64,000 nucleotides of DNA from the NCBI GenBank assembly GCA_013036105.1, contig JAAXCX010000003.1, forward strand, positions 62,001 to 126,000, given 5' to 3'. Below the pieces are notes generated by a model, which saw only the letters and a program-made list of their open reading frames with translations, was not told the DNA's origin and ran no database searches. Positions 20,767-64,000 of this stretch are shown in pieces. The position numbers and the translations under genes are program-made. Origin of the DNA: Vulcanimicrobiota bacterium (GTDB lineage: Bacteria; Vulcanimicrobiota; Vulcanimicrobiia; Vulcanimicrobiales; Vulcanimicrobiaceae). Position 1 is the stretch's first letter; each line of letters starts with the position of its first letter.

Positions 20767-20860
20767 TGGCGGGAAAGTGTAGGAATCGAACCTACCAGCC
20801 GGCTTGCACCGGCCTCAGCGGTTTTGAAGACCGTGCGGGCCACCAGACCCGTACTCTCCC
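20767..20860 (-). tRNA. selC: Selenocysteine tRNA (anticodon UCA)
   Basis: 94 nt including an encoded CCA. The acceptor stem is the 8-bp form special to bacterial tRNA-Sec: GGGAGAGT pairs with ACTTTCCC (one G-U), followed by discriminator G and CCA. The anticodon loop CTTCAAA carries TCA (20825-20827 on the plus strand). A long extra arm (GGCCGG..CCGGCT) and TTCGATTC T-loop complete the fold. It is charged with serine and converted to Sec-tRNA by SelA, then delivered by SelB; both genes are at 29.4-32.6 kb. Confidence 0.97.
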
Positions 20861-42932: not shown

Positions 42933-42939
42933 TCTGTCC

Positions 42940-44493
42940 TCAGCGTGCGAGCGCGCTGTCGTACCAGCGGGCCAGGTCGTTCTTGAATTGCGCGAGCGCG
43001 GCTTCGTTGAGATAGACCATGTGTCCCGACTGATAAAAGCCGAACGTGATGTTCTTCTGCAATTGGGGCGCGATGCTCAGATGCTGCAGCGTATAAACTG
43101 TCGCAAAGTAGGGCGTTGCGAAATCGTAGTAGCCGTTCGCCGAAAAAACTTTCAGGCTGGGATTCTGCGTCATCGTTTCGGCCAAGTCGGGAGCGACGTT
43201 GGGCGGTTCGCGCCGGTTGTGCGTAAAATCCCAGGAATTGCCGTTGCCGTAGATGATTCCATAGATGTTCGGGCGGTATTGCAGCGTAGTCTCGTACTTG
43301 AGATCGCTGCGCAGATACTGATTGATCGCGGTCGTGTAGGGAGCATCGATCGACGAATCGGTCGGGTCCCACGCCGGGCCTTCGTCGGCGGCCCGGTCGA
43401 GCGCGAACGTTCGATAACGCGCGTCGAGCCGCCCGATGACCGCGTCCTGCGAGCGCAACAGCTGCTGCTCGAACCGCTGATAAGGAATGCGCAGGTTGCT
43501 TTCGCGCACGTACTGCTCGGAGACGCCGAGATACGCGCTCAGCTTGTGGACGACGTCGTTGCGTTCGGAAGCACTTAAGTTTCCGCCCTTATAAAGAGCG
43601 TCTAAATATTCGCCGAGCGCGAATTGTTCGACGGGCTGCAAGAACGCCGCGAGGTCGGCGGGCCTGTTGCGGACTTTTCCGTGATACCAAGCGGCGGCGG
43701 CTTCAGTTGGAAGGTACAGCACGTATGCCCAATCGCCCGCGGCGATCGGATCGCCGTTGCCGAAATCCAGCCCGAAGTTCAAGATCGAAGAGAGCAGCAC
43801 GACGCCGTTTAGCGCGATGCCTTGGTTGAGCAGCGTATTGGCCAGCGCGGCAGAACGCGTGGTGCCGTAACTCTCGCCGAACAGAAACTTCGGCGAATTC
43901 CAGCGTCCAAATTTCGTGATATAGCGCTGGATGAATTGGGCGAACGCGGCGACGTCTTGATCGACACCAAAGAACGTCTTGGGGGTGCCCGCGCCGGTAA
44001 TACGGCCGAAGCCGCTGTCGGGCATGTCGATGAAGACGAGATCGCTCTTGTCGAGCAAACTGTATGAATTATTGGCGATGCGGTAAGGCGGCGGGCCGGT
44101 CGCCGCGGCGTTGGCCGCCAGCACGCGGACCGGTCCGAACGAACCCATGCGCAGCCACATCGTCGAGCTGCCCGGACCTCCATTATAAATGAAGGTTACC
44201 GGCCGCGATCCCGGATCGGAACTCTCCAGCGTGTAGGCCGTATAGAAGACGCGCGCGGTCGGAACTTCCTTGTCGTTGCGCAGCGTAATCGTGCCGGCGC
44301 GCGCGGTGTATGCGTAGGGCTGTCCGTCGATCGTGACGGTATGCTGCGTAACCGCGTCGGGGGCTTCGCCGTCGGAAACTTCGGGCGGCGGCGAGGCCGC
44401 GGCTTGCGGCGGCATGTGCGGCGGTGCGGCCGAAACCGGCCCCATCGGTACGCCGAGGGCAAAGAACAACAGGAAAGCGGCGAGTTTTCTCAA
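42940..44493 (-). CDS. Exported S10 serine carboxypeptidase-like protein (paralogue 2)
   Basis: 517 aa. It has a signal peptide (LAAFLLFFALGVPMGPVSA) and a Pro/Ala linker before the catalytic domain. Motifs match the neighbouring copy: VTFIYNGGPGSSTMWLRMG, LFGESYGTTRSA, NGYYDFATPYFAT, SGHMVYLN. The two proteins align throughout and are clearly the product of tandem duplication; 7 bp separate them. The start overlaps the PadR gene stop (ATGA), so the regulator and the two peptidases form one operon. Confidence 0.88.
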   Translation of the reverse strand: MRKLAAFLLFFALGVPMGPVSAAPPHMPPQAAASPPPEVSDGEAPDAVTQHTVTIDGQPYAYTARAGTITLRNDKEVPTARVFYTAYTLESSDPGSRPVTFIYNGGPGSSTMWLRMGSFGPVRVLAANAAATGPPPYRIANNSYSLLDKSDLVFIDMPDSGFGRITGAGTPKTFFGVDQDVAAFAQFIQRYITKFGRWNSPKFLFGESYGTTRSAALANTLLNQGIALNGVVLLSSILNFGLDFGNGDPIAAGDWAYVLYLPTEAAAAWYHGKVRNRPADLAAFLQPVEQFALGEYLDALYKGGNLSASERNDVVHKLSAYLGVSEQYVRESNLRIPYQRFEQQLLRSQDAVIGRLDARYRTFALDRAADEGPAWDPTDSSIDAPYTTAINQYLRSDLKYETTLQYRPNIYGIIYGNGNSWDFTHNRREPPNVAPDLAETMTQNPSLKVFSANGYYDFATPYFATVYTLQHLSIAPQLQKNITFGFYQSGHMVYLNEAALAQFKNDLARWYDSALAR

Positions 44494-46654: not shown

Positions 46655-47296
46655 CTATCGGAGCACGAGGTATTGCGCTAGCGCGTCGATACGCCGCGGC
46701 GTGAATCCGGAGACGTCCGCAAGCTCGTCCAGTGAGGCAAACGGGCCGTTTTGCGCGCGATAGGCCACGATGCGCTCCGCCAGCGTCTGACCGAGTCCGG
46801 GCACCCGCGCGAGTTCGCCGGCGCTTGCGGAGTTCACATTGAGGCTCATTCGGAGACGGGCGCGCTTCTTTCGCGCGATCTTGCGCGAGCGGGGCGCACT
46901 CTCGCCGGTGCGCGGAACGCGGATCTCTTCGCCGTCTTGCACGATCTCCGCGAGGTTCACAGCGGCGCGGTCGGCCGCATTCGAAAAGCTTCCCGCCTTC
47001 TCGACGGCGTCGTTCGCTCGCGCGCCGGGCGGAACGCGGTAGAGTCCGGGATGCCTGACTTCGCCGGCGACGTAGACGACGAGCTGCGGTGCGGGTCTCG
47101 ACTTCGCACGACCGTGCCCTTCGACTCGCGCGCACGCGCGCTGCTCAGGATGACAACCCGCCTCGCCCACCATGACACCAGGGGAGCCCGCGACAACGGG
47201 GGCTCTCGCCGAGATAGCGGGCGGCCGCGGCGCCGGATGCAAAAAAGCGAGCGCGACCAGGATAACGGCTGCGCCCGCGATAGCCAGAATTTTCAC
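46655..47296 (-). CDS. comEA: Competence protein ComEA (SLBB plus helix-hairpin-helix)
   Basis: 213 aa. An N-terminal membrane helix ([17 protein letters not shown]) is followed by a linker, an SLBB domain ([20 protein letters not shown], from residue 72) and a C-terminal double helix-hairpin-helix ([20 protein letters not shown]). ComEA binds incoming double-stranded DNA on the outside of the membrane and hands it to ComEC. Residues 48-62 of the linker ([15 protein letters not shown]) are the translation of a REP-like repeat, which must have entered in frame. comEC lies 5 kb to the right and is interrupted. Confidence 0.9.
47118..47179 (-). repeat. REP-like repeat inside comEA
   Basis: On the minus strand TGTCATCCTGAGC, a GC-rich palindromic middle, then GTCGAAGG (47118-47155). 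A partial second unit, GTGTCATGGTGGGC, is at 47166-47179. Same unit as in the inverted repeat at 33015-33164. Confidence 0.7.
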
Positions 47297-51705: not shown

Positions 51706-52640
51706 CGGGTTACCGGCAGCGCATCCTTAAAATACTCATACGTTTCGCGAATTCCATCGCTCAGCTCCGTACCGGGAGACCAGCCCAGCTCTTTCTTTGC
51801 GAGCGCCCAATCGAATTGCGCGTCGCGCGCGTCGCCTGGACGCTTGGGAGCCTGCTCGGTCGGTGCTTCAAACCCCGATACCTTGCAGAGCTCGTCGTAG
51901 ATATGATTCACGCTCGTGCGTTTATTCGTTCCGATGCAATACATGCCGCCGCTGCCGCGTTCCAACGCTGCGAGGTTGGCGGATGCTACGTCGCGCACGT
52001 AAACGTAATCGCGCGTCTGCTCGCCGTCGGAGTCGATGCGCACACCTTCTTTAGCCAAGAACTTCCCGATGAAGATCGCGATCACACCGGCTTCGCCATT
52101 GGGATCCTGCCGCGGGCCGTACACGTTGCCGTAGCGCAGCGACGTGAATTCGAGCCCGCGCTCGTGTTGGAAGAAGCGCAGGTAGTGTTCGCCGGCCATC
52201 TTCGTAATGCCATATGGCGATTCGGGACGTTGCGGCGTGGTTTCGTTCATCGGCAGGCGTTCCGGCGTTCCGAATATTGCCCCGCTTGAAGCGTAAACAA
52301 TCTTTTGAACGCCGTGGCGGACGGAGTTTTCGAGGATGTTGAGCAGCCCGACGACGTTCACTTGCGCGTCGTAGATTGGATCGCGCGAGCCGATCGCCAC
52401 GCTCGCTTGCGCCGCGTGGTGGCTCACGATCTCCGGCTTGAACTCTTGAAAAATTCGGGCAATCGATTCGTCGCGGATATCCATGTGCATGAATAACGCG
52501 CGAGGGGGGACGTTTTGACGACGGCCGCCGCCATGTTCCCACAGCGCGTCGAGAACCAGCACCTCGTGGCCGGCCGCCAAGTACGCATCGGTCACGTGCG
52601 ACCCGATGAATCCGGCCCCGCCGGTGACCATGATCCGCAT
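51702..52640 (-). CDS. NAD-dependent nucleotide-sugar epimerase/dehydratase (UDP-glucose 4-epimerase-like)
   Basis: 312 aa from ATG 52640 with AAAGGAG six bases before; the open frame continues upstream but antisense to comEC. The NAD loop is VTGGAGFIGSHV at residues 5-16; the SDR catalytic triad shows as YASSGAIFG and the YGITK (Tyr-x3-Lys). RYGNVYGPRQDPNGEAGVIA is typical of extended SDR sugar epimerases. It supplies modified sugars for surface glycans or natural products. Its start codon overlaps that of the divergent comEC remnant by 11 bp. Confidence 0.92.
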   Translation of the reverse strand: MRIMVTGGAGFIGSHVTDAYLAAGHEVLVLDALWEHGGGRRQNVPPRALFMHMDIRDESIARIFQEFKPEIVSHHAAQASVAIGSRDPIYDAQVNVVGLLNILENSVRHGVQKIVYASSGAIFGTPERLPMNETTPQRPESPYGITKMAGEHYLRFFQHERGLEFTSLRYGNVYGPRQDPNGEAGVIAIFIGKFLAKEGVRIDSDGEQTRDYVYVRDVASANLAALERGSGGMYCIGTNKRTSVNHIYDELCKVSGFEAPTEQAPKRPGDARDAQFDWALAKKELGWSPGTELSDGIRETYEYFKDALPVTR

Positions 52641-53394
52641 TGCAGCTCCTTTAATTCTTGCCGTCTCGTCGCAGTTGCGATACGTGCCGGAACGTTCCCC
52701 GCTTTTGCTGTTAGGCGCCGCTGCCACGTTGGGCGCGGCCGCCGCGCAGCCTTTTTCCCCGGAGGCGCGCGGATTGACGCTGTGCGCATGCGTCGTGCTC
52801 TGCGGCTGGATTGCGCTCGCACGTTCGTCGCTTCTGCCGCTTCGCGCGTGCGCTGCGGTCGCCCTGGCGGCGGGTTGGTGCGTGGCGGCATTACACGTTT
52901 CGGCCCAGCCGCCCACGCTTTCGGGAAAAACGGCGCGTTTTGCGTGTACCGTTCTCGATCCGAATGGCGCTCAAAACGACGGCAGCGCTTTTATTTGCGC
53001 GGCAGACGACGGAGCGAAGCTGGCCGTCACAACACGAGGATCGCTTCCGCACGCGGGCGCTCGCGTGCTCCTGCGCGGACGGGTCGAATCTTTTGATTTA
53101 CCGCGCAATCCCGGCGAACCGGACCAGCGCGCGATCGAGCGCGAGCGCGGTATCAGCGCTCGCATGGGCAACGCGCGAATTCTTCGCCTCCTTCCTCCCG
53201 GCGCGCCGACGCTTGATGTGCTCATCGCAAAAGCCCACGAATGGGCGCTCGCGCAGCTTCGCGCGCGTCTTTCCGAGCCGTCGGCAACGATTTTGGCAGG
53301 CGAACTCTGGGGCGAGCGTTCGGCGCTGCCGCCCGAGCTGCGAACGGAGTTTCAAGAAACGGGAACGGTGCACGTGCTCGTCACCGCGGGATAG
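52630..53394 (+). pseudogene. comEC: 5' fragment of comEC, cut by the Cas1 element
   Basis: 254 codons survive. The N-terminal helices and the OB-like domain are visible (GARVLLRGRVESFDLPRNPG, and RAIERERGISARMGNARI), and then the start of the competence domain: LAGELWGERSALPPELR and FQETGTVHVLVTAG. In intact ComEC the last four residues continue as AGLH(L/V), the start of the first conserved helix, but here a TAG follows directly. The missing part, over 450 residues including the channel, must lie beyond the right end of the inserted DNA or be lost. ComEC is the DNA uptake channel, so natural transformation should be blocked. Confidence 0.88.
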
Positions 53395-53523
53395 GAGACA
53401 GGACGCCCGAAAACGAGGCCCCCCCTGTGCCGGGAGTGAGGCGGTTGGGTCGCTTAGCGCCTAGTGGCGGGGCACTATGCCTAGAAGCCGCGCGGCTTAC
53501 ACCCAGGCCGCGCGGGTTCGGAC
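53395..53523. repeat. Palindrome-rich left terminal region of the element
   Basis: Non-coding 129 bp between the comEC break and the first element gene. It holds TAGTG-GCGGGG-CACTA (53462-53477), a perfect 14-bp palindrome AAGCCGCGCGGCTT (53485-53498) and a second CCGCGCGG 20 bp after the first (53488 and 53508). This is a candidate terminal inverted repeat or integrase-binding site; part may serve as a terminator for the gene at 53524. Confidence 0.6.
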
Positions 53524-54420
53524 TTATCGAAGGGTTTCAAGATCGGGCGGCTGGTTCAGGAGAGCACAGAGCGTTAAATACCCTAACGCAATGCCACTCA
53601 GCCGAACTGCAAAGTGATTGGCGGTCAATGCGCCAGCGCTTCCAATCGTTTGAAACTGTCCGAATAACCAACGAACTGGTTCAGGGTCGGCAGTTACTTC
53701 GCCAGGAACAAAAAGTCTTCCGATTGCGTCTCTCGTTGGGCTTGAATCAAAGCTTGGGTCTCCAAAGCCGCTGGTCTTGTGACGAAATCTTACAATACCG
53801 AGCTCGTCAAGCAACAATGCGTCGTCATAGCGTAGAACCACCTCATTGAGAGCCTCGAAGTGGCACCGAATCCATGCGACCAGTTTAGCCTGCATCTGAA
53901 TACGATCGGCCTCAGTCGCAATTTCATCGATCTTAACCGGAGGCACTGCTTCCTTTACAAAATAAATTAGCGCGAGCTGACGTAAGTGCGTTGGACGAAG
54001 ATAATTTAACGCGTCAGTTGCCATGTCGATTACAGCTGAAGACGACGAGTCGCTCTTGCTCTGCAGGGCTAACGCCACGAGCTCCGCTAGGTTTCCATGA
54101 ACCAGAGAATCAGAACTGTTAGCGCCAATTCGGGTCGCCTTCGAAAGAATCGTTTGGATAATAGGTTCATTGAGGCGGCTATCTGCATCGCGAGATAAAA
54201 TGTGGCCATTGTTTATCTCGCGGGCTAGAGTCGAATCAATAGAACTGATATAATCACCGATGTTCACTATAATGGTTTGCTGTGTCGCAGCAGGAAAGAA
54301 CTTGCGCTCCTCATCCACGTTTTTTAAACCTGCGCCAAAAAGCTGTGGGACTCGGGCTTTTACCCAGTCGCTGGTAAGGTTGGCCGCAATGGCTATCCCG
54401 AGAAGGGTCAGTGGGTCCAA
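53524..54420 (-). CDS. Unknown protein associated with the restriction genes
   Basis: 298 aa. N-terminal hydrophobic stretch (LTLLGIAIAANLTSDWVKA) followed by a mixed helical protein with YISSIDSTLAREINNG and RYDDALLLDELGIVRF. The C-terminus contains a second hydrophobic segment (LSGIALGYLTLCALL). It recalls LPO_1073/Vpar_1526-type proteins that are seen near restriction systems, but I cannot confirm it. Lower GC than the chromosome. It follows the Mrr-like gene by 48 bp on the same strand and is the last gene before the element terminus. Confidence 0.5.
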   Translation of the reverse strand: MDPLTLLGIAIAANLTSDWVKARVPQLFGAGLKNVDEERKFFPAATQQTIIVNIGDYISSIDSTLAREINNGHILSRDADSRLNEPIIQTILSKATRIGANSSDSLVHGNLAELVALALQSKSDSSSSAVIDMATDALNYLRPTHLRQLALIYFVKEAVPPVKIDEIATEADRIQMQAKLVAWIRCHFEALNEVVLRYDDALLLDELGIVRFRHKTSGFGDPSFDSSPTRDAIGRLFVPGEVTADPEPVRWLFGQFQTIGSAGALTANHFAVRLSGIALGYLTLCALLNQPPDLETLR

Positions 54421-54468
54421 TTTCTCGCCGTCATCGACATTCAGCTATGAACTATCGTATTCATTCGG

Positions 54469-55497
54469 CTATGAGTCTTCAGCGACAGGCGCCCACACTC
54501 GCTTGAGAGGTAGCTCGCTCCGGATTTCATCCGGTAGGTTCTCGTAAACTCTTAGTATGGCGTCCACAAGATCGTCGGAATCCCAGAGCCGCACTTGAAA
54601 AAATGACCGACGGCCTTCGCCATAAACAGAGGAGCGAAAACCGCCCCACGACACAAACAGTCCATGATCCGCTCCAAAGTTTTTCAACGCCCCTTGAAGC
54701 TCGCGAATCGCACGCACGTCTTCAGGTGAATCGCTTGACTTTACCTGTACGCAGATTCGCGGTTCATCAAATCCCAGTTCGCCGCGTGCTGCCATTAAGT
54801 CTACGCCTCCGTCGGCGCCAGCTCGTGTTCGATCTACGTTGTATCCGTCGGCAGTTAGGATAGCAGCGATCAACCTTTCCAGATCGTGACCACGAAAGCG
54901 TTTGCCAATTAGCCGCACAATCGCATCGCGCGCTGCGCGTTCAACATCGAATAATTCCGCCGGTGGCTCCGGCGTGTCATCCACAGAAAGTTCGGGCACT
55001 CGCGCTATTGAATCCGGGGTTCCCTCTACAAGGAGTAAAACTCGCGCGGTCGCATTGTTTCGGCTTATCTTCGCGACCGTCATATACGCGCCAAGAGAAT
55101 ACAGCAGGTCCTGGTCTATATTGCTACGGGGAACGTCTTTCTTAATCCATTCAACGGTGCGAGCGTGACAAGCATCGATTTCCTTATATTGCTCAAGATA
55201 GTTGTATGCACTTCTAACATAACCGAAAGCAATTGCGGCCCGCTTTTTTAAAGGCATCGCAACGATGTCGCCGAGACTTATTGACTGGTAAAAAGCCCAG
55301 ACTTGCCCAGCCCAGTTTCGCAGCCGACCGATATTTGCATCTGGATGGCACTCGGCAAGGGCGCTCTGCACATCCGCTTTAGTCGGAAAACGAGACAAGT
55401 CACCGAGCTCGCCCCAACCAATCGTTGCAATGCCTTCGGCGAGTGCTAGGTCTTCGCGATCACCGCTTCGTCCTGCACGCACAAGCCATACATTCAT
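54469..55497 (-). CDS. Mrr-type restriction endonuclease with N-terminal EVE/PUA-like domain
   Basis: 342 aa. The N-terminal part (WLVRAGRSGD, then IATIGWGELGDL and LGDIVAMPLKK) resembles the EVE/PUA-like readers of modified DNA in type IV enzymes. The C-terminal Mrr catalytic domain has FRGHDLERLIAAILTADGYN, D233 in ADGGVDLMA and Q251-V-K253 in CVQVKSS, a complete PD-(D/E)xK set. Known Mrr proteins cleave modified foreign DNA. With the methyltransferase-nuclease gene upstream on the same strand, it forms the element's defence part. Lower GC than the chromosome. Confidence 0.8.
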   Translation of the reverse strand: MNVWLVRAGRSGDREDLALAEGIATIGWGELGDLSRFPTKADVQSALAECHPDANIGRLRNWAGQVWAFYQSISLGDIVAMPLKKRAAIAFGYVRSAYNYLEQYKEIDACHARTVEWIKKDVPRSNIDQDLLYSLGAYMTVAKISRNNATARVLLLVEGTPDSIARVPELSVDDTPEPPAELFDVERAARDAIVRLIGKRFRGHDLERLIAAILTADGYNVDRTRAGADGGVDLMAARGELGFDEPRICVQVKSSDSPEDVRAIRELQGALKNFGADHGLFVSWGGFRSSVYGEGRRSFFQVRLWDSDDLVDAILRVYENLPDEIRSELPLKRVWAPVAEDS

Positions 55498-55684
55498 GTA
55501 AAACTCCTTTGCGCACCGTCACTCGCATGCGGCGCGATATCTCGCTTCACGAGCCTCCGAGAAGTTCTCATTGTACTGCGTTAGCGAGGGACGGCCAAGG
55601 CCTTGTTAAAGCACCGAGACCGGCAGTGCGGCAAGAGCTACCCGGAAAAATCTTGCTCTACGAACTCCTGGTCAGTAGCGAATC
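55498..55684. other. Non-coding gap, nothing recognised
   Basis: 187 bp between the Mrr-like gene and the methyltransferase. No conserved frame, tRNA, repeat or clear terminator was found; it should contain the Mrr-like gene's promoter or leader (AAAGGAG-type site at its left side near 55505). Confidence 0.4.
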
Positions 55685-57148
55685 TTAGATCGGAAGTTCA
55701 GGCATCTCGGATACGATCCGCCTCGCCTTCTTGAAGGTCACGTCAGTCCTTTGGGATCGTGCCGGATAATCAATACTTTTGCCCGCCAGAAGTTGCTCAA
55801 TGGTAAGGATTTGGATTTTCGGATGCCTGCCGCCCATGGGTGATACGTAGAAACCGCTTTTCGCCGCGTCTTTTTCCATAGCTGGAGTAGGCCGCGCCAT
55901 CGTTATGAGAACCCCTATTTCTGCCTTTTCCCGTGACACTGTGCCATGAAGATCGCGCACCATCGCGGGGCCGATATTCTCTCCCGCCTTTACGGATAAA
56001 ATGATTCGTTTCGTTTTTCCGCGTGGGTCGTCATGAAAGTAAATGTTGCCGTCAATTCCGTAGTCTGCACCTTTCTTTTGTTCTGACTGCGCTGGTCGTG
56101 CGCCGACGAGCCCTAAGGCCCAGAACTGAAACTGATGTTCGTCCTCTTTCGCCAGGGCTTGAGCCTCTTCGAGGACGGTAGGCTCGCCCCGAACGCTATA
56201 CGTTTCGGTGATCGCATCACCAAATTGATTGATTAAACGATGCTTGATCAAGCCGATAGCCAAATGTGTTATATCGATACCGATCCAACGCCGTCCTAGC
56301 CGTTGCGCCGCTGCAATCGTCGTCCCGCAACCGCAAAACGGGTCTAGCACAATGTCGTCTGGATTGCTACTCGTCGCGATGATACGATCCAAGAGTACCT
56401 CGGGTTTTTGCGTAGGGTAGCCGAGCCGTTCTGCTCCTGAGCCAGCAATAATAGAAAGGTCCCAAACGTCGCGGCGCGGCAGGCCCTTTGACGGTTCATC
56501 CACTGGAATCTTTCGGGTCCTCGTTACCACGTCGAGGACTTGCGTGTTGCCCTTAAAGCGTTTTACGTAGCTCTCGCTATTGGGCTCGTACTCAACGTGA
56601 AACGTGCCTGGCCTTTGTGACTTGGCGTAAAAAAGAATAACGTCGTGCATCTTTTGATACCGTCGCGTTTTTGTCGGCCAGCGACGATAACTCCAGATGA
56701 TTTCGTTTTGGAAGCAACGCGTTCCGAAGATAGCATCCATAATGAGGCGGAGGTATGCGCTCGCAGTTGGGTCACAATGAAGATAAATGCTACCTTCACT
56801 CCTGAGAACGCGCCGCATTTCCGTTAGGCGCGGAACCATCATGATCAGATAAGCCATCGTGTTGGACGCGCCGAGTATCTTGTATAAACCTTGCAGCGTC
56901 TCGGAAACGATGCCGCCTTCTTCGACCAATTCTTCAAGCGTTCGCGCCGTTTCAATCGTCCATTCCCAAGTGTCCTCGAATGCTTTTATTTGCGCGGCGG
57001 CTTTTTCTCCGCCGTGTTCCGCGAAAAGTACGTTATAATCGGCGTTCGAATTGAAGGGCGGGTCCAGGTAGATGAGATCGATCGACTCGTCAGCCAGATA
57101 ACGACGCATTACATCCAGATTGTCGCCGTAAAAAAGTGTATTGCTCAC
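55685..57148 (-). CDS. DNA methyltransferase fused to a restriction-endonuclease-like C-terminal domain
   Basis: 487 aa from GTG 57148, which directly precedes the conserved SNTLFYGDNLDVMRRYL; a TTG 11 codons earlier is possible. Beta-class order: motif IV LIYLDPPFNSNADYN (DPPF near residues 29-32), then motif I DPFCGCGTT near residues 269-277, with GYPTQKPEVLLDRII before it. The C-terminal part has GADYGIDGNIYF and IILSVKAGENIG, resembling a PD-(D/E)xK nuclease core, so the protein may combine methylation and cleavage. Target base N6-adenine or N4-cytosine. Clearly lower GC than the chromosome. Casposons often carry methyltransferases. Confidence 0.82.
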   Translation of the reverse strand: MSNTLFYGDNLDVMRRYLADESIDLIYLDPPFNSNADYNVLFAEHGGEKAAAQIKAFEDTWEWTIETARTLEELVEEGGIVSETLQGLYKILGASNTMAYLIMMVPRLTEMRRVLRSEGSIYLHCDPTASAYLRLIMDAIFGTRCFQNEIIWSYRRWPTKTRRYQKMHDVILFYAKSQRPGTFHVEYEPNSESYVKRFKGNTQVLDVVTRTRKIPVDEPSKGLPRRDVWDLSIIAGSGAERLGYPTQKPEVLLDRIIATSSNPDDIVLDPFCGCGTTIAAAQRLGRRWIGIDITHLAIGLIKHRLINQFGDAITETYSVRGEPTVLEEAQALAKEDEHQFQFWALGLVGARPAQSEQKKGADYGIDGNIYFHDDPRGKTKRIILSVKAGENIGPAMVRDLHGTVSREKAEIGVLITMARPTPAMEKDAAKSGFYVSPMGGRHPKIQILTIEQLLAGKSIDYPARSQRTDVTFKKARRIVSEMPELPI

Positions 57149-57277
57149 CCTTCGCCTGGCGCTCCGTTGGAAGCATTGCAATTCATCGATTTCTGAAACA
57201 TGGCCGTGTGGCTGATGTTTAGTTATTACATAATCTACAGTCCTCCAACATTATGAAATCGCTCAAAATAAACTGGT

Positions 57278-57631
57278 ATGCAGGCTACGAAGTCCGCCAC
57301 AGTGGTAAAGACTATCGGCAAAGCGGTTCGAGCTGCCCGAGAGGCTCGTGGCCTAACTCTCCGCCAAGTCGCCAAAGCGGTTGGAATGTCAGTGCCTCAG
57401 CTCTCATCGCTAGAATCTGGACGGCCCGGGAATCCTGGTTGGAACACGGTAGTCCGGCTTGCGAGGGCTCTTGAGATTTCCTTGGACGAGGTTGCCAGTG
57501 GTAAGGCCGAAAGACCAGTCGAACCTTCGACGCCTCGCGCAATAAGGTTAGCTATCGAGCGCGCTCGCAGGGACGCCGAAAAATCCTCAAAGACGCTGGC
57601 TGATTTAACAGACTTATTGGGAAAGCCATAG
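57278..57631 (+). CDS. XRE-family HTH regulator
   Basis: 117 aa. A Cro/CI-type HTH fills residues 17-70: ARGLTLRQVAKAVGMSVPQL and SSLESGRPGNPGWNTVVRLA. The C-terminal tail (RAIRLAIERARRDAEKSSK) is a probable dimerisation helix. It is divergent from the methyltransferase, 129 bp from its start, and probably controls it, like restriction-system C proteins. It converges on cas1 with 24 bp between the stops. Confidence 0.85.
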   Translation: MQATKSATVVKTIGKAVRAAREARGLTLRQVAKAVGMSVPQLSSLESGRPGNPGWNTVVRLARALEISLDEVASGKAERPVEPSTPRAIRLAIERARRDAEKSSKTLADLTDLLGKP

Positions 57632-57655
57632 GCGTCGCCCAAAGCTTCTTTTCGA

Positions 57656-59206
57656 CTATTTATTAGCCAGCTGCAGTAGGGCTTTCCAATGGCGCTTGTG
57701 CGGCGTATGTTTACCGCTTCGAATCTTGCACGCATATGAAGGCGAGCACTGAAGCGCCTTGCTCAGAATATTTATCGGAACGCGCTGAACATTTGGCAGG
57801 ATATCCCGCGTGAAATCAACCCGCTCAAGCGATCCGTCGTCTTTCCAAGCCACCACTGCGCGACGATTCGCGCTGGCTTTTGCCCTTCGCTTTTGACGCA
57901 CAGGCTCAGTGTCTCTGGGATCGCGGCCTTGCGCCCGGAGCACGGCGAGTTTTTCGAGCCCGGCAAGTCTATTTCCAAAGTTCTCGCGGAATTGCTCCGC
58001 CTGACGCAGCGGCAGACACTCATCGCAAAACAATCTATCGGTGACGGGCAAGACCTTAGCGCAATTGCGACAAGCGTTGCGCAGACGCGGCAAAGCCGTC
58101 GGTGCTTTTGGAATACTCGGCAGTGCAATCTTCGCGGTGCGAATTTTTAAGCGGCCTCTGTTCAATGAACGCTTTTGCGGTTTATTTTGAATCATCGGAC
58201 CGAGATAGCCGCTCTTAGCCACGAGGACGACATGGCGCGTTATCATTTCAGCATACGGGCTAACCAGCTGCCCCCAGGTTGGCATGGTCGCTGCCAACTC
58301 GTGCGTGAGTGAAGCTGAAAGTCTACAGCCGCCCTCGCGTGTTTCGAAGAAATCTTTGGCCGCGAATGCCCGCGTCCTTAAAAGGTTCAGGACGAAGGCG
58401 TCAACGTGAGGGCGCACTGGCTCCATGACATCCGTTGCGAGCGATTGGCGATTGGCTGAGTCGGCGTGGAACAAGCCCAGGCCGGGGTCTAAGCCGCGCT
58501 CGATCAAGGCGATGCGCGATTCGACTTCGAGTAGCGTGTAGACGTAGTTTAATACGGCGTTTATCGGATTTGACGCATTGCGCGGCTGCGACGTTAACGG
58601 GGAGCGCCGAGTCCTAAATGTGCGCCAGTGATCGGGAACTGCGTCGCGCCGAGCGAATTGCATCGTGATCGGCGCCCACATATTCCAGTAGGTATTGGCT
58701 GCTTGCCGTTCCGCCAGCAGGACATCTTCGAATAAATCGGCGCGTTCGATTGCAGTAAGGGGCTCAGCTAACGCCTTTGCATCGGCAATCTCAAAGGATT
58801 CGAGGACAGCCGCCTGAGCCTGAATTTTCGGAGTGAGTAGCGAAGCCGCAAGCGTAACGCGGTTTTCGCCAACGGTCGCAAAGGCCTGTGCTCTTCGCAG
58901 GATGGCATTATCGAGGCCCCCTATCGAAGCGGCCAGGATTCGCGCATCATAGTCCAGTTGCACGAACGCCGCGCCAATGTCGTGGAGCCAGCGCAAAGCA
59001 GGCAGCGTAATGAAGCCTGTTTGGCCCATAATTAGCAGACGCTTTAAGCGGCTTGTCGCCTTGGCGAATTTGCCGCTGCGTCGATTGCGGCCAACGCCGT
59101 CGCGGACATGTAAGTGCCGAGCGTCCACACTGACGCGAATGCCGTAGCCGCTGAGCATCAAAACGCCGTCGCGGATCGGCGGGGCTGTGGTATCGTGTAC
59201 GTGCAT
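57656..59206 (-). CDS. cas1: Stand-alone Cas1 with C-terminal zinc motif and HTH (casposase-like integrase)
   Basis: 516 aa, much longer than CRISPR Cas1 (about 300-350). Residues 1-340 form a complete Cas1: N-terminal beta domain (MLSGYGIRVSVDARHLHVRD), then catalytic E166 in LLAERQAANTYW, the conserved NPINAVLNYVYTLLE, H247 in GLDPGLGLFHADS, and D259/E262 in SLATDVMEPVRPHVD. After the core come C379, C382, C394 and C397 (C-x2-C, x11, C-x2-C), a basic linker and an HTH-like tail (residues 477-516, LSKALQCSPSYACKIRSG). AGGAGAGG lies 10 bases before the ATG. No Cas2, Cas4, effector or array is near. Archaeal casposases also bear C-terminal HTH domains. Confidence 0.92.
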   Translation of the reverse strand: MHVHDTTAPPIRDGVLMLSGYGIRVSVDARHLHVRDGVGRNRRSGKFAKATSRLKRLLIMGQTGFITLPALRWLHDIGAAFVQLDYDARILAASIGGLDNAILRRAQAFATVGENRVTLAASLLTPKIQAQAAVLESFEIADAKALAEPLTAIERADLFEDVLLAERQAANTYWNMWAPITMQFARRDAVPDHWRTFRTRRSPLTSQPRNASNPINAVLNYVYTLLEVESRIALIERGLDPGLGLFHADSANRQSLATDVMEPVRPHVDAFVLNLLRTRAFAAKDFFETREGGCRLSASLTHELAATMPTWGQLVSPYAEMITRHVVLVAKSGYLGPMIQNKPQKRSLNRGRLKIRTAKIALPSIPKAPTALPRLRNACRNCAKVLPVTDRLFCDECLPLRQAEQFRENFGNRLAGLEKLAVLRAQGRDPRDTEPVRQKRRAKASANRRAVVAWKDDGSLERVDFTRDILPNVQRVPINILSKALQCSPSYACKIRSGKHTPHKRHWKALLQLANK

Positions 59207-59233
59207 CTGGAGCTAACCTCTCCTGGTGCGAAG

Positions 59234-59261
59234 CCCTCGGCCCGTTAGCGCGGGTCGAGGG
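59234..59261 (-). terminator. Hairpin between the HTH gene and cas1
   Basis: CCCTCGGCCCG / CGGGTCGAGGG, 11-bp stem with one G-U pair and loop TTAGCG. It lies after the stop of the gene at 59272 and 28 bases before the cas1 ATG. No T-run on the minus strand, so it could be a weak terminator or a leader element regulating cas1. Confidence 0.5.
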
Positions 59262-59271
59262 TCCTTTAGTG

Positions 59272-60198
59272 CTATTTAGGTTTTATGACGAGACGAAGAT
59301 CATCCAACGACGGAATTTCGGCCCTCTGCCATTGCCAAAGGTTTTCATTTTTGTGTGGGTCGCCAACAAATCCACCTTCGGAATACAGAGCCACTCTTGC
59401 AAAGTCAGCATATCCTTTGCAGACGGTATCGCACCAATGATGGACGTACTCCGCGACAATGGAGAGCTGCATCGGCGTACCATAAACGCGCCAAGGCAAA
59501 ATCTTCTCTGCTTCTTTCAAAGGTTTGCGCATGTGATAAAGATGCGATGGTACCCGCGCCACGTCAGCGAGCGATAACATTTCATCTGCGACAAGCGCCA
59601 AGTCTCTGATGAATGTAGGGACTTCTTTCTGCGACTTATCACCACGTCGAGGAAACATCCCAATGGCCAACAGAATTGCGCACGCCATCGGTCGTGGAAG
59701 CGCTATGGTTGCGAAGACGCCCGCTTGATTGTAGATTGTCGCGACATGGTACCGGTGCGCGAGAGTATCGGGCGGTTGCGATAAGTCAGCTTCGACCCAT
59801 TCCGTTCCGGCTGGCGGAGCGTAGTGTAGAAGAAATGCCGCACCGCGCTCGTCCAGATGCAAACGGTCGTCGTGCATCCACGCCCATCCGAGCTTATAGA
59901 GCTTATCGAAATAATCGAAAACGGCACTGTAATGGTGGCTGGACCAAAGTGCCTCTATAGGTGAAACGCCGACGGCGATGGCCAGTTTGCGAACCATGTC
60001 CGATCCCGGCACGATCTGCAGACGAAAATATTTGCCGACGCGCTCGGCATTGCGGTAGCCGATAGCGTCTGCGACGGCCCTCAGTGATAAACCGCGCTGC
60101 TCACGTTCGTCGTTCAGCCACTGCATCGTGCGGGAATTCGGAAGATTGGCCCGCCCACGGGTGACGTAGCGCTTCTTCTTGCCTTCTGCCGGACACAT
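59272..60198 (-). CDS. Large XRE-like HTH protein, likely element regulator
   Basis: 308 aa. N-terminal HTH at about residues 25-75: RTMQWLNDEREQRGLSLRAV, then ADAIGYRNAERVGKYFRLQI and LAIAVGVSPIEAL. The remaining 230 residues form an unrecognised helical domain (WAWMHDDRLHLDERGAAFLL, then FIRDLALVADEMLS). It lies upstream of cas1 on the same strand with 65 bp between and is divergent from the replication-side operon, so it is well placed to repress both. A phage-repressor-like role is an inference from position. Confidence 0.65.
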   Translation of the reverse strand: MCPAEGKKKRYVTRGRANLPNSRTMQWLNDEREQRGLSLRAVADAIGYRNAERVGKYFRLQIVPGSDMVRKLAIAVGVSPIEALWSSHHYSAVFDYFDKLYKLGWAWMHDDRLHLDERGAAFLLHYAPPAGTEWVEADLSQPPDTLAHRYHVATIYNQAGVFATIALPRPMACAILLAIGMFPRRGDKSQKEVPTFIRDLALVADEMLSLADVARVPSHLYHMRKPLKEAEKILPWRVYGTPMQLSIVAEYVHHWCDTVCKGYADFARVALYSEGGFVGDPHKNENLWQWQRAEIPSLDDLRLVIKPK

Positions 60199-60310
60199 TT
60201 TCAGAGTCTATATTTGAAAAAACCTCACAATATACCTCTGTATTATCGTGACAAATCCCTTGCCAAGGGGCTAAAATGAGGGCGGAAAGGAGCTGGACAC
60301 ACATTTCTAT
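60199..60310. promoter_or_regulatory. AT-rich divergent control region of the element
   Basis: 112 bp between two divergent HTH genes, clearly richer in A and T than the surroundings. ATAC-CTCT-GTAT (60234-60245) is a short inverted repeat that could be an operator. An AAAGGAG lies about 20 bases before the ATG at 60311, rather distant. Promoters for both operons are expected here. Confidence 0.55.
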
Positions 60311-60544
60311 ATGACGCTACTAGAGTTTATGCGGCGCTCGAACGGCTGGACCCAGGTTGCCCTGGCGAACGCCCTTGGTGAGGGTTTCACGGCGAGCGCG
60401 ATTTCGCTCATGGAGACCGGGCGGCTGCGACCCAGCTCGAAGCAGGCCGCGCAGCTCTCTCGGCTCTTCGCGCGCTCGGCGGATGAGCTCTTACAGCCGG
60501 TTGGTGATCGTGACGCCAGCCTTTCAAAGGAAGCGCGGTCGTGA
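60311..60544 (+). CDS. Small XRE-family HTH protein
   Basis: 77 aa, one Cro-like HTH: LLEFMRRSNGWTQVALANAL, then GFTASAISLMETGRLRPS and AAQLSRLFARSADEL. It is the first gene of a chain of overlapping plus-strand genes and likely acts at the control region just upstream, opposing the large HTH protein in the manner of a Cro/CI pair. GTGA overlap with the next gene. Confidence 0.8.
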   Translation: MTLLEFMRRSNGWTQVALANALGEGFTASAISLMETGRLRPSSKQAAQLSRLFARSADELLQPVGDRDASLSKEARS

Positions 60545-60894
60545 CTCGCGCCGAGTGCTTAGAGCTTACGAAGAAGCTGCTCGATGATGGCCGCCTATCC
60601 GATGATCAGATTGCGGATGTAGTCGGGCGCTCCAAGCGTTGGGTTAGAAAGATCGTGCGCGAGCATCCGCGTTACTCGAAAGTTGAAGTCATCTACGCTC
60701 CAACGCCGACCCCGAACATTACTGGAGAGCCACACCCCACTAACAAAAAATCACCATCGCTGCGGACACGCTGGCGTAAGTTCAAGAAAACCGTTGTCGG
60801 GGCGCTAGAAGCTGTCGGCATCGTTGCGCTGTTGTCGCTCTATGCCGTAGGTATAGTCCGTAATGCACAACGCCGGAAAGTGAATCATTCATGA
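60541..60894 (+). CDS. HTH protein with a C-terminal membrane helix
   Basis: 117 aa, GTG start inside the previous stop. The N-terminal 45 residues look like a simple HTH (LSDDQIADVVGRSKRWVRKI), followed by a Pro/Thr linker, a basic segment (LRTRWRKFKKTVVGAL) and one membrane helix (AVGIVALLSLYAVGIV). A DNA-binding domain tied to the membrane could anchor element DNA for replication or partition; this is an inference. No family recognised. Its stop overlaps the next ATG (ATGA). Confidence 0.6.
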   Translation: MTRAECLELTKKLLDDGRLSDDQIADVVGRSKRWVRKIVREHPRYSKVEVIYAPTPTPNITGEPHPTNKKSPSLRTRWRKFKKTVVGALEAVGIVALLSLYAVGIVRNAQRRKVNHS

Positions 60895-61670
60895 ACGCGA
60901 CAATTGAAACATTGCCATTAGATTGCATTGATCTCGACGCCGCTCTTCAACCGCGTTGCGGTCCCCTAGACAAAGAGCATATTGCGGCTCTCATGGAAGC
61001 GCCTGAGAATTGGCCACCCATAACCGTCGCGATGCGCGGCCAGAGCGCGGTACTAATTGACGGATGGCATCGATATGAAGCGGCGGCGCAGCTTGGACTT
61101 GAGTACATCACGTGCAAAGTAATCGACACGCCGCCCGAGGGCGATTATTTCCGGTTGGCTTTTGAGCTGAATGCGACGCACGGCAAGCCGCTGACGCAAT
61201 CGGATCGCAAAGCGTATGCGTCCAAATTACTGAGCGCTCATCCCGAATATTCCGACCGCGAAATCGGTCGGCGCACAGGCCTGCACCATGAAACTATCGG
61301 CGCGCTGCGATTGCAAAGCGGATTACCGAATTACCGCGTTCCCGAACGCAGACCCGGAGCGATTGAATCGGACATCGCCCTTCTGGACCCGATTCGCTTT
61401 GCTAAAGCAACCAAAGAGCAGAAATCCGTCAGCGGCTACATCAAGCGGCTGCTTCAGTCACTCGAAGACCCATATTCCGATAGCGACGGCTATTCGAACG
61501 TGGCAGGTTGGACCGACGACCCGCTTTCAATCGCGCAGGCTTGCTTCACCACGATGGGTCCTCAAAAAGCTTCGGATGTTCTCGAATTGCTAGAACAAGA
61601 GGCGCGCTTTCTATTGGACATCGGTAAGGCGCGCAAGCAAATAGCACAATCCTACAGGGAGAATCAGTAA
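60891..61670 (+). CDS. ParB/Srx-fold nuclease-like protein
   Basis: 259 aa. The N-terminal ParB-like domain has DCIDLDAALQPRCGPLDKEH, WPPITVAMRGQSAVLIDGWH and the HRYEAAAQLGLEYITCKVID core. An HTH follows around residues 118-145 (YSDREIGRRTGLHHETIGAL). The C-terminus is helical. ParB proteins of plasmids and phages bind DNA for partition; the related nuclease group cuts DNA. No ParA is adjacent. It lies in the chain of overlapping genes, and its stop shares one base with the next ATG (TAATG). Confidence 0.82.
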   Translation: MNATIETLPLDCIDLDAALQPRCGPLDKEHIAALMEAPENWPPITVAMRGQSAVLIDGWHRYEAAAQLGLEYITCKVIDTPPEGDYFRLAFELNATHGKPLTQSDRKAYASKLLSAHPEYSDREIGRRTGLHHETIGALRLQSGLPNYRVPERRPGAIESDIALLDPIRFAKATKEQKSVSGYIKRLLQSLEDPYSDSDGYSNVAGWTDDPLSIAQACFTTMGPQKASDVLELLEQEARFLLDIGKARKQIAQSYRENQ

Positions 61671-62035
61671 TGAAAACGACTACGAAACCACGTCGGCGCG
61701 CATCGTCAAATGGCGCCGCGTTCGCCTTCTCGTCGGCAATCCCGTATGCCGATAAGGGCGAGCTAATTGAAAAGGACCTCGCGTTCGCCGTCAAGGCCAT
61801 CGAGTTTCAACCCGAGCGCGGATTCGAAAACCAGGACCGTTGGGCTGTGACGATTGTACCGAATGACGGGCGTGGCGAAGAGCTCCTCACGTTCGGTTCC
61901 AACGAAAAGCGCGACGCGCAGATGAAATCGGCCCAAGCCTTCGTCAAGAAACATGGGGCGATTCCCGATGTGCGCCTGCGCAAATCCGGCAAAGCGTACT
62001 ACCTTCAGAGTTCATCCGGTTCCGATGCGGCGTAA
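61670..62035 (+). CDS. Unknown small protein, possible ssDNA-binding type
   Basis: 121 aa with a basic N-terminus (MKTTTKPRRRASS), a beta-rich middle (LIEKDLAFAVKAIEFQPERG, then QDRWAVTIVPNDG) and a C-terminal DVRLRKSGKAYYLQ. The beta-strand spacing is compatible with an OB-like fold that would suit a replication protein, but this is only a guess from pattern. Coupled to the ParB-like gene and followed by a strong hairpin. Confidence 0.6.
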   Translation: MKTTTKPRRRASSNGAAFAFSSAIPYADKGELIEKDLAFAVKAIEFQPERGFENQDRWAVTIVPNDGRGEELLTFGSNEKRDAQMKSAQAFVKKHGAIPDVRLRKSGKAYYLQSSSGSDAA

Positions 62036-62049
62036 TGCTACAAACGACG

Positions 62050-62076
62050 GGGCCGACGAAATGCACTCGTCGGCCC
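62050..62076 (+). terminator. Strong hairpin after the first replication-side operon
   Basis: GGGCCGACGA / TCGTCGGCCC, a perfect 10-bp stem with a 7-base loop, in the 64-bp gap between genes. The tail TCTAGGGTTG lacks a good T-run, so termination may be partial. Confidence 0.65.
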
Positions 62077-62099
62077 TCTAGGGTTGCTGTCGTTCAGCT

Positions 62100-62642
62100 A
62101 TGGCAATTATAAGGAAGAAGGGGCGCGTGCGTCAACGCGCCACGGTGCGACGACCGCGTAACGCCGGGCAATATACAGCCAGATCGCCAGAGTTCCAACA
62201 GCGCTGGAACGCTGTTACCCATGCCATTACTGCTATGCGCAGTGGCAAACTTTCGCTCACTAGTGCGGCACGCGAATACGGAGTTGATCCACGCACCGTC
62301 GCGCGCCTGGGCGCACCGGCACTGCGCAAGGGCGCGACTGGACGCTACGCGGCCAAGAGCAGCGACAGTCTGCTGCGCATGCTCGTGGTGCCGACACGTG
62401 AGGGACTGGCGGAAATCGCCACTCGCTCTTCGCGCGAGGCAACGCAGCTGGCCGAGTATTGGGAAGCCGTGCAGTGGTTCATCGATACCGGCGACACCTC
62501 GAAGCTACGAGCGTTTCGCGGCAAGAGCGTCAGCGGTGCCGACGGGAGCCGCTTACCGCTGATAACCGATCCGGATGAATTAGAGCGACTGGGGAACGTG
62601 GGCGAGCTGTCATTCGAGTCCATTTACGCGAAGGCTGCATAG
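62100..62642 (+). CDS. Unknown basic protein with an HTH segment
   Basis: 180 aa. A very basic N-terminus (MAIIRKKGRVRQRATVRRPR) is followed by an HTH-like stretch at about residues 50-70 (KLSLTSAAREYGVDPRTVAR) and a helical C-terminal half (ATQLAEYWEAVQWFIDTGDT). A DNA-binding protein is likely; family unknown. It begins the second plus-strand group (with the genes at 62645 and 63121) after the hairpin at 62050. Confidence 0.6.
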   Translation: MAIIRKKGRVRQRATVRRPRNAGQYTARSPEFQQRWNAVTHAITAMRSGKLSLTSAAREYGVDPRTVARLGAPALRKGATGRYAAKSSDSLLRMLVVPTREGLAEIATRSSREATQLAEYWEAVQWFIDTGDTSKLRAFRGKSVSGADGSRLPLITDPDELERLGNVGELSFESIYAKAA

Positions 62643-62644
62643 CA

Positions 62645-63169
62645 GTGGCAGCGCGACGGCAGCGCGATCCGATAGCGGCAGATGCTCGCAGCGCCGCTGC
62701 CGTGCGTCGTGCTGCGCAGCGGCGTTGCGCTACCTGTCCCCAGCTGCGACCGGGGGCGCAAGTCGAAACACGACCAGAAGCGCTGCTCACCAATCGCAAT
62801 CCGGTGATCTGCTATGAGTGCATGCTAATTGCCTCAGAAAAGTCATCCCAGGAACCGCATCACGTCGCGGGCCAACGCAACAGCGCGCTTACCGTCGCTC
62901 TTCCGGCAAATGACCATCGCGCGATCCTCTCGGTTAATCAGTACGACTGGCCTGCACGAACGCTGCAAAACCCGGACGGAAGCCCACTGCTTGCCGCAGC
63001 CGCAGCGCTCCGTGGATTCGCCGATCTGATTATCTATCTGTTGAACGCGCTTATCTATCCGGTTGCGCATTTACTCGAAGCGCTCGATGAGGTTCTGCAA
63101 AACGAGCGCGGGGAGCAGTGGTGGAAACAAACGCCAATTGCACAGTGGACTCCCCCGTGGCCAAAATAA
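62645..63169 (+). CDS. Unknown protein with two CxxC pairs
   Basis: 174 aa from a GTG two bases after the previous stop. The N-terminal half has CATCP and CYEC, two C-x2-C pairs about 25 residues apart that could form a zinc site. The C-terminal half has a hydrophobic segment (GFADLIIYLLNALIYPVAHL). No family recognised. It overlaps the likely start of the exonuclease/PolB-like gene by 49 bp, so the two are probably translated together. Confidence 0.5.
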   Translation: MAARRQRDPIAADARSAAAVRRAAQRRCATCPQLRPGAQVETRPEALLTNRNPVICYECMLIASEKSSQEPHHVAGQRNSALTVALPANDHRAILSVNQYDWPARTLQNPDGSPLLAAAAALRGFADLIIYLLNALIYPVAHLLEALDEVLQNERGEQWWKQTPIAQWTPPWPK

Positions 63170-64000
63170 CCCCCATTGATTCACTGCGCATGGCGCTGCG
63201 CGTCTTCCCCGATTTGGGAGATGCGAAGAAGCGCTCGAAGCGTGAGATAGCGCATACCGACCTTCCCACGCGCAGGCTTGTCCTAGATTTTGAAACCCGC
63301 ATCGATGCGTTGCAGGCTATGACGTTTGGTTGCTATCGCTACTATTCCGAGGGCGGGCCGTGCGTTGAAGAGGGATTGGTCTATTCACGCAACCTGAATC
63401 ACAACGAGCGGCGCACTCTCAAACGCTATGCGCAAAAGCGCCGGGCTGACACCGACTGGCCAGCGAGCCACGTTCTACAGCTGCTTCCGCTGTCCGAATT
63501 CGTGGAGAGGTTTTATCTAGCGGCTTACAAGGGACGCTGCCGCGTCGTGGGTTTCAATCTGCCTTTCGATGTGAGCAGAATGGCCAGCGGTTTTGCCAAA
63601 GCGCGCGGTCGATTCGCTGGCGGCTTCTCGCTCAATCTTTCGCAGTACGACGATGGAACCGGACGGCTGCGCGCCGATCGCTTCCGTCCCAATATCGCCA
63701 TCAAGCATATCGATAGCAAACGCGCTCTCAAAGGCTTTACTGGGAGGGCTACGCCGGACAAGGCGGATCGTATTCCGGAACATTCCCCTTCGGGCCAACC
63801 GGAAGAGGGCTATAAGTTTCGTGGTCATTTCTTAGACTTGCGAACGCTGGTTTTTGCGCTGACGGACCGAGGACACTCACTCGAATCGGCTTGCCGGACC
63901 TTTGCCGTTGAGCATCCGAAAACAAAGGCACAAGAGCACGGTACTGTCACCGATGAATATATCGATTACTGTCGGCGAGACGTTCGCGCGACTGCCGAGC
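63121..64000 (+). CDS. 3'-5' exonuclease domain, probable N-terminus of a family B DNA polymerase (partial)
   Basis: Open to the window edge (293 codons seen) from GTG 63121, which has GGGGAG six bases upstream; the frame opens at 63091. Three DnaQ-like exonuclease motifs in correct order: Exo I LVLDFETR (D56, E58), Exo II VVGFNLPFD (N146, D150) and Exo III YCRRDVRAT (Y283, D287). The Y-x3-D form of Exo III, preceded by FLDLRTLVFALTDRGHSL, fits the proofreading domain of family B polymerases rather than bacterial DnaQ, which has H-x4-D. The polymerase domain would start after the window, so the PolB call is provisional. Confidence 0.7.
   Translation, partial: METNANCTVDSPVAKITPIDSLRMALRVFPDLGDAKKRSKREIAHTDLPTRRLVLDFETRIDALQAMTFGCYRYYSEGGPCVEEGLVYSRNLNHNERRTLKRYAQKRRADTDWPASHVLQLLPLSEFVERFYLAAYKGRCRVVGFNLPFDVSRMASGFAKARGRFAGGFSLNLSQYDDGTGRLRADRFRPNIAIKHIDSKRALKGFTGRATPDKADRIPEHSPSGQPEEGYKFRGHFLDLRTLVFALTDRGHSLESACRTFAVEHPKTKAQEHGTVTDEYIDYCRRDVRATAE

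Follow-up and report, generated by a model that had tools for sequence, protein, structure and literature searches.

Sequence analysis of a casposon that splits the competence gene comEC in an uncultured soil relative of the Eremiobacterota

Introduction

Why does the comEC reading frame of an uncultured soil bacterium, a relative of the Eremiobacterota (Vulcanimicrobiota), end abruptly in a conserved part of its competence domain, and what would this mean for the host? ComEC is the channel through which DNA is imported. CRISPR adaptation is presumed to descend from casposases, and the casposon targets known to us are few, most of them harmless 3' ends or intergenic sites. Casposases integrate DNA with terminal inverted repeats (TIRs), generating duplications of 14-15 bp, and recognise leader and target site duplication (TSD) motifs (PMC6614799). 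The casposon MetMaz-C1 excises precisely, leaving a single clean target site, and re-integrates (PMC10359463). Cells can be cured of integrated elements by transformation, and elements benefit from disrupting competence genes (PMC4774983).

The window, that is, the whole stretch of 64,000 nucleotides that was analysed, corresponds to C3:62001-126000 of the genome G000; the locus L002, which reaches beyond its end, corresponds to C3:114001-133500.

Results

The two parts of comEC lie on either side of an element

The comEC gene begins with an ATG at 52630, and its frame is open through GTVHVLVTAG and then meets a TAG at 53392-53394. Intact relatives continue at this position with AGLHLG. A sequence-only reading of the window had described a frame running to GTVHVLVTAG and a stop where intact proteins read AGLH, and the open reading frame of the window and the comEC genes of relatives agree on this. 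The same reading placed the cut in the conserved part of the competence domain, and it does fall within VLVTAGLH, a conserved stretch one third into the gene (approximately codon 253 of 789). The actual break precedes the TAG by a few bases, after ...GTC ACC GC, and the TAG belongs to the left inverted repeat of a casposon (GGGATAGG..., starting at 53388). The features at the two junctions are as follows.

52630..53387, + strand: comEC 5' part (DUF4131 region and start of the Competence domain), from the open reading frame, PF13567 (3.8e-7), the start of PF03772 and the joined 789-aa ComEC
53374..53387, + strand: left TSD copy, 14 bp, GTGCTCGTCACCGC, directly outside the left end
53388..53436, + strand: left TIR, GGGATAGGAGACAGGACGCCCGAAAACGAGGCC..., which brings the in-frame TAG at 53392; 37-bp perfect match and a further 16-bp match
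53388..64000, no strand: portion of the casposon within the window, continuing to window-equivalent 68754; G+C 55% against 61% in the flanks
L002:16708-16754: right TIR, partner of the left repeat at 53388..53436
L002:16755-16768, outside the window: right TSD copy, 14 bp, GTGCTCGTCACCGC, directly outside the right end

The missing 3' part of comEC was found beyond the right end of the element, where it had been proposed to look, at C3:130755-132380 (window-equivalent 68755-70380), on the same contig and directly after the right inverted repeat. The only match to PF03772 (Competence domain) in the whole genome is at C3:130764-131483. Joining the flanks gives an intact ComEC frame of 789 codons without a stop (...GTVHVLVTAGLHLGVVAAL...). 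With perfect inverted repeats of 37 bp, a direct repeat of 14 bp placed precisely at the two ends and a stop-free joined frame of 789 codons, the split as read from these sequences is beyond chance. An assembly error that joined the element to comEC is exceedingly improbable; the genome is a draft in 29 contigs with a contamination estimate of 4%, but both junctions are on one contig with the matching 14-bp duplication and inverted repeats, and the same junction occurs in an independent genome (G069).

Both halves of comEC are open and show no decay, and the two TSD copies are identical. The dN/dS of comEC was 0.115 for G000 versus G068 and 0.093 for G000 versus G071, and the codon changes specific to G000 comprised 74 synonymous and 21 nonsynonymous ones. 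The comEC gene of G000 is under purifying selection, with dN/dS about 0.1 (0.09-0.12). This value and the lack of decay indicate a recent insertion, as the sequence-only reading had suggested, and together with the clean frames and the identical TSDs they rule out an old relic. A missing remainder, or an intact second comEC beside an old relic, had been named beforehand as grounds against that reading; the remainder is present, and a search of the genome found no second intact comEC, merely short 3' pieces on contig C2. Inactivation of comEC, as predicted from the split gene, is nearly certain. From the duplicated site onwards the right half retains a long open frame with a GTG (L002:16755-18380), and a C-terminal half of ComEC may therefore still be made separately.

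The element has the features of a casposon

The casposon is 15,367 bp long (L002:1388-16754, window-equivalent 53388-68754) and extends beyond the end of the window. Its ends are inverted copies of GGGATAGGAGACAGGACGCCCGAAAACGAGGCCCC..., with the first 37 bp identical within one or two bases of register and 16 bp more matching further inside. Since GGGA occurs in the target as well as at the start of the element, and a C precedes each copy, a direct repeat of up to 19 bp could also be read. A TSD of 18-19 bp was rejected in favour of 14 bp on the basis of the symmetry of the TIRs and of an element in G061 (3,057 bp, L064:10653-13709) with the same ends, whose 14-bp TSD is followed by CTAAATG and not by GGGA, which fixes the boundary. 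The G061 element has no cas1, lies just ahead of the stop codon of an mqnC-like gene and looks nonautonomous.

The genes carried by the casposon are listed below.

53524..54420, - strand: protein of no assigned function, 298 aa (weak NF045477, 8e-9, below its cut-off)
54469..55497, - strand: Mrr-type restriction endonuclease, 342 aa (PF04471, 1.8e-25)
55685..57181, - strand: DNA methylase with a C-terminal Mrr-like domain, 498 aa (PF01555, 2.9e-47; PF04471, 1e-7)
57278..57631, + strand: helix-turn-helix (HTH) regulator, 117 aa (PF13560, 3.8e-15)
57656..59206, - strand: Cas1 (casposase), 516 aa, with Cas1 domain, zinc ribbon (C379, C382, C394, C397) and HTH-like C-terminal region (PF01867, 1.6e-38)
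59272..60198, - strand: HTH protein, 308 aa (PF13560, 8e-5)
60311..60544, + strand: small HTH protein, 77 aa (PF13560, 1.1e-7)
60541..60894, + strand: HTH_23-like protein, 117 aa (PF13384, 1.1e-4)
60891..61670, + strand: ParB-like protein, 259 aa (phrog_1033, 2e-13)
62100..62642, + strand: HTH protein, 180 aa (PF05225, 0.0011)
63118..64000, + strand: start of a B-family DNA polymerase (PolB); whole gene L002:11118-14189, 1023 aa

The best match of Cas1 in the PDB was 6opm (E 4e-23), ahead of every CRISPR Cas1 chain; we take this structure to be the Methanosarcina mazei casposase. When five members of the family were aligned, E166, H247, D259 and the four zinc-ribbon cysteines were invariant and the C terminus was HTH-like. 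This Cas1 is the sole Cas1 match in the G000 genome, and a profile search of the casposon's scanned open reading frames found no other Cas genes. The polymerase matched phrog_1907 (7e-7) and, below the cut-off of that profile, PF03175 (4.8e-4); motifs A, B and C could be recognised by eye (DFLSMYP, KVLANATSYG and DTDS), and a homolog (E 1e-84) is present in a G052 casposon, while phmmer returned no PDB match. The G052 relative is complete (14.7 kb), with a Cas1 that is 38% identical, the PolB homolog and its own 15-bp TSD.

A stand-alone Cas1, a PolB, TIRs and a TSD of 14-15 bp are every feature of the definition that sequence can test, and by these the element is a casposon. All four (the TSD measuring 14 bp) bear out its earlier naming as one, and the same combination characterises the bacterial family 3 casposon AceAut-C1 (PMC4046053). 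As in AceAut-C1, when compared by domain order with its description, the zinc-binding and HTH regions are both C-terminal to Cas1 (PMC4046053). Unlike casposons of the AceAut-C1 type, this one carries Mrr nucleases, and no HNH nuclease was found in it by Pfam. Like MetMaz-C1, it has a casposase whose closest solved structure is 6opm (PMC10359463); MetMaz-C1 differs in that it targets tRNA-Leu-type sites and its excision has been demonstrated. Published casposon targets in genes overlap the 3' ends of those genes (PMC4046053), and unlike casposons at the 3' ends of tRNA or EF-2 genes, this one lies inside a protein gene and cuts it. The analogy to tRNA and EF-2 sites is accordingly weaker than first stated, since the published gene targets and the G097 subfamily described below are at gene ends and this casposon enters a third of the way in.

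A sister species is hit at the same comEC nucleotide

The sequence-only reading had also proposed a search of relatives for insertions at the same codons, and the comEC of G069, from the same genus, carries one: GTVHVLVTAG is followed by GGGATAGGAGACAGGAGCC... at the identical position (L063:3077). The N-terminal half of the G069 gene has a frameshift, and the 3' half is absent from the assembly. The site is empty in G072, the nearest relative of G069 (89% identical), in G068, G070 and G071 (84-86% identical to G000) and also in G073. The G000 and G069 elements have only about 56 bp of end sequence in common, and their interiors are unrelated by blastn; their target copies differ at three positions, all of them third-codon positions. 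Closer relatives of each with an empty site, differing targets and unrelated interiors point to two insertions.

The precise excision known for casposons (PMC10359463) would allow for one ancestral insertion in the genus that was later lost cleanly from five lineages. We consider this very improbable and rejected it on tree position and element content, as G069 groups with the empty-site G072 and G000 with the empty-site G068, G070 and G071, and both targets and interiors differ as described.

The TSDs of elements with this end-type share approximately GNNNNSGTNAC, which, scaled from the window, occurs roughly 2,900 times per genome on both strands. The reuse of one site therefore suggests specificity beyond the motif alone. 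At several sites of this end-type the reading phase is the same, such that GGGATAG gives an in-frame stop. Two independent insertions identify the comEC site, at the sequence level, as a recurrent target of this element lineage; they are few for claiming selection.

The end pattern occurs in one phylum among the genomes scanned

Among 84,980 genomes scanned, the end pattern GGGATAGGAG..AAACGAGGCCC matched only metagenome-assembled genomes of Eremiobacterota/Vulcanimicrobiota, in 11 stretches, many of them from palsa and fen. It was present in 9 of the 99 genomes of the window's family, the reversed control gave 0 matches, and viral contigs gave none. Relatives of Cas1 were found in 34 of the 99 family genomes. 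Cas1-like matches occurred at 18 places in G021 and 16 in G075, counting fragments, many of which cover solely the C-terminal HTH part; these two genomes show casposon expansion with many fragments.

A second casposon subfamily lies in G097 at the stop codon of a gene ending in PCGSGKKYKRCHGAAA (SEC-C motif, as in SecA), and matching TSDs were seen in G006 and G052. In G097 (L187/L188; C45: 181756, 186494 and 195191) several casposons stand in tandem with the repeated TSD between them, resembling a CRISPR array. Tandem arrays, a feature of described casposons (PMC4046053), are thus also present in relatives of this element.

Separately, a comM stretch of about 41 bp (coding EVMRQPLEEGTVT) lies outside seven inverted-repeat ends of the same type (L126, L127, L128, L129, L125, L075 and L123). 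The DNA beyond it is unrelated, and in G070 no partner end occurs within 38 kb; for these reasons we rejected comM as a site of further casposons of this type.

comEC is broken repeatedly within the genus

An undamaged comEC was present in only one of the seven genus genomes (G073). In G070 and G071 the gene is cut at codon 591 (HPHGD), directly after a GA dinucleotide, and in G070, where comEC is also frameshifted, a large serine integrase adjoins the cut (PF00239, 6.8e-19; phrog_95, 1.7e-48). The gene of G072 is cut near codon 350, and that of G068 has a nonsense codon at 322. In the rest of the family comEC is usually intact, with cuts in G093 and G018 (about codon 593) and in G045 (near 495).

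Cuts at codons 591-594, approximately, in the HPHGDH motif after GA were seen in L070 (G070), L071 (G071), L109/L110 (G093) and L119 (G018), and a large serine integrase gene adjoins the cut in G018 as well as in G070. G000 itself has, on contig C2 (L105:1836-3795), a serine integrase 67% identical to that of G070 next to a comEC 3' fragment (codons 587-709), and comEC codons 708-778 about 36 kb from that fragment (L106). Four other genomes (G065, G041, G084 and G096) have an intact comEC and, downstream of it, an additional 3' piece of the gene, as would be expected if elements brought along a replacement for the 3' end.

Other competence genes varied. An intact comEA-like gene is situated near comEC, outside the element:

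46655..47296, - strand: comEA-like gene with SLBB and helix-hairpin-helix (PF12836, 6.5e-20; PF10531, 5.3e-13)

Two genus genomes, G068 and G073, have an intact comM. In G069, G070, G071 and G072 the gene is cut, at differing codons, and some of these cuts may be contig effects; in G000 it was not found. Genes of the DprA family occur in all seven genus genomes, and G000 is without the copy that has the top score in the other six. Lacking comM and the main dprA-like copy, G000 may have begun to lose competence earlier; a gap in the assembly is the alternative.

Discussion

A recent casposon insertion that disables comEC at a recurrent target site is the best explanation of these data, and we consider it highly probable. 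The casposon, presumably moved by its own Cas1 casposase, inserted after ...GTGCTCGTCACCGC and duplicated those 14 bp. Its first bases, GGGATAG, place an in-frame TAG two codons beyond the cut, so that the host makes at most a stub of 254 codons. The channel and metallo-lactamase part of ComEC is left without its start, and, from the known role of ComEC, the host would be unable to import DNA by transformation. With comEC cut in this way, and a sister species hit independently at the same position, the casposon probably prevents its host from taking up DNA. The likely gain for the element would be that a nontransformable host could not delete it by importing an empty-site allele, an anti-curing reading that is attractive and unproven. 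Precise excision, by analogy with Methanosarcina mazei, could restore comEC.

The hit could also be incidental: if comEC were under relaxed selection in the genus, any element would be tolerated and the casposon would gain nothing. We give this a substantial but minority chance. The nonsense codon of G068, the frameshift of G070 and the lack of comM in G000 fit it, whereas the dN/dS of about 0.1 in G000 does not; damage to the relatives' genes comes mostly from insertions at recurring sites and not from scattered decay, and exact reuse of one nucleotide is improbable at random given the number of motif sites per genome. A recent, disabling insertion at a recurrent site remains our preferred reading. 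We advance only tentatively, as possible and somewhat short of an even prospect, the wider proposal that Eremiobacterota casposons and unrelated serine-integrase elements each use competence genes (comEC at two fixed sites, and perhaps comM), repeatedly and reversibly switching hosts out of transformation to avoid curing.

Mobile elements are known at comparable positions. Like prophage 1207.3 and Tn1207.1 in streptococcal comEC (PMC4260502), the casposon occupies a fixed comEC site, and like the insertions in comK, comYC, comFA and comM (PMC4774983), it interrupts a competence gene. Those elements, prophage 1207.3 included, use serine or tyrosine integrases, unlike the Cas1 casposase found here. 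The streptococcal prophage enters comEC at a GA site (PMC4260502), and the codon-591 insertions of the relatives, at GA and with a serine integrase in G070, resemble this type (serine recombinase, GA core). Elements have also disrupted comEC repeatedly in Piscirickettsia salmonis, where other uptake genes persist; unlike the present case, that one involves ordinary transposable elements in a fish pathogen, and no casposon (PMC12955456).

In the literature searched, we found no report of casposons or competence in this phylum, nor the combination of a casposon and a competence gene. Casposons and elements in competence genes are each known already; a casposon splitting comEC, with an independent second case, is a new combination. 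With two independent cuts at one fixed codon of a named gene, this bacterial casposon lineage provides a target sequence that can be tested and, in DNA uptake, a phenotype. It also brings a new class of element into the conflict already known between natural transformation and mobile DNA.

Two further features of the window were recorded. The sole tRNA identified in it by ARAGORN is a selenocysteine tRNA at 20767-20860, and two tandem serine-carboxypeptidase-like genes at 41427-44493 are about 73-75% identical in parts of their DNA.
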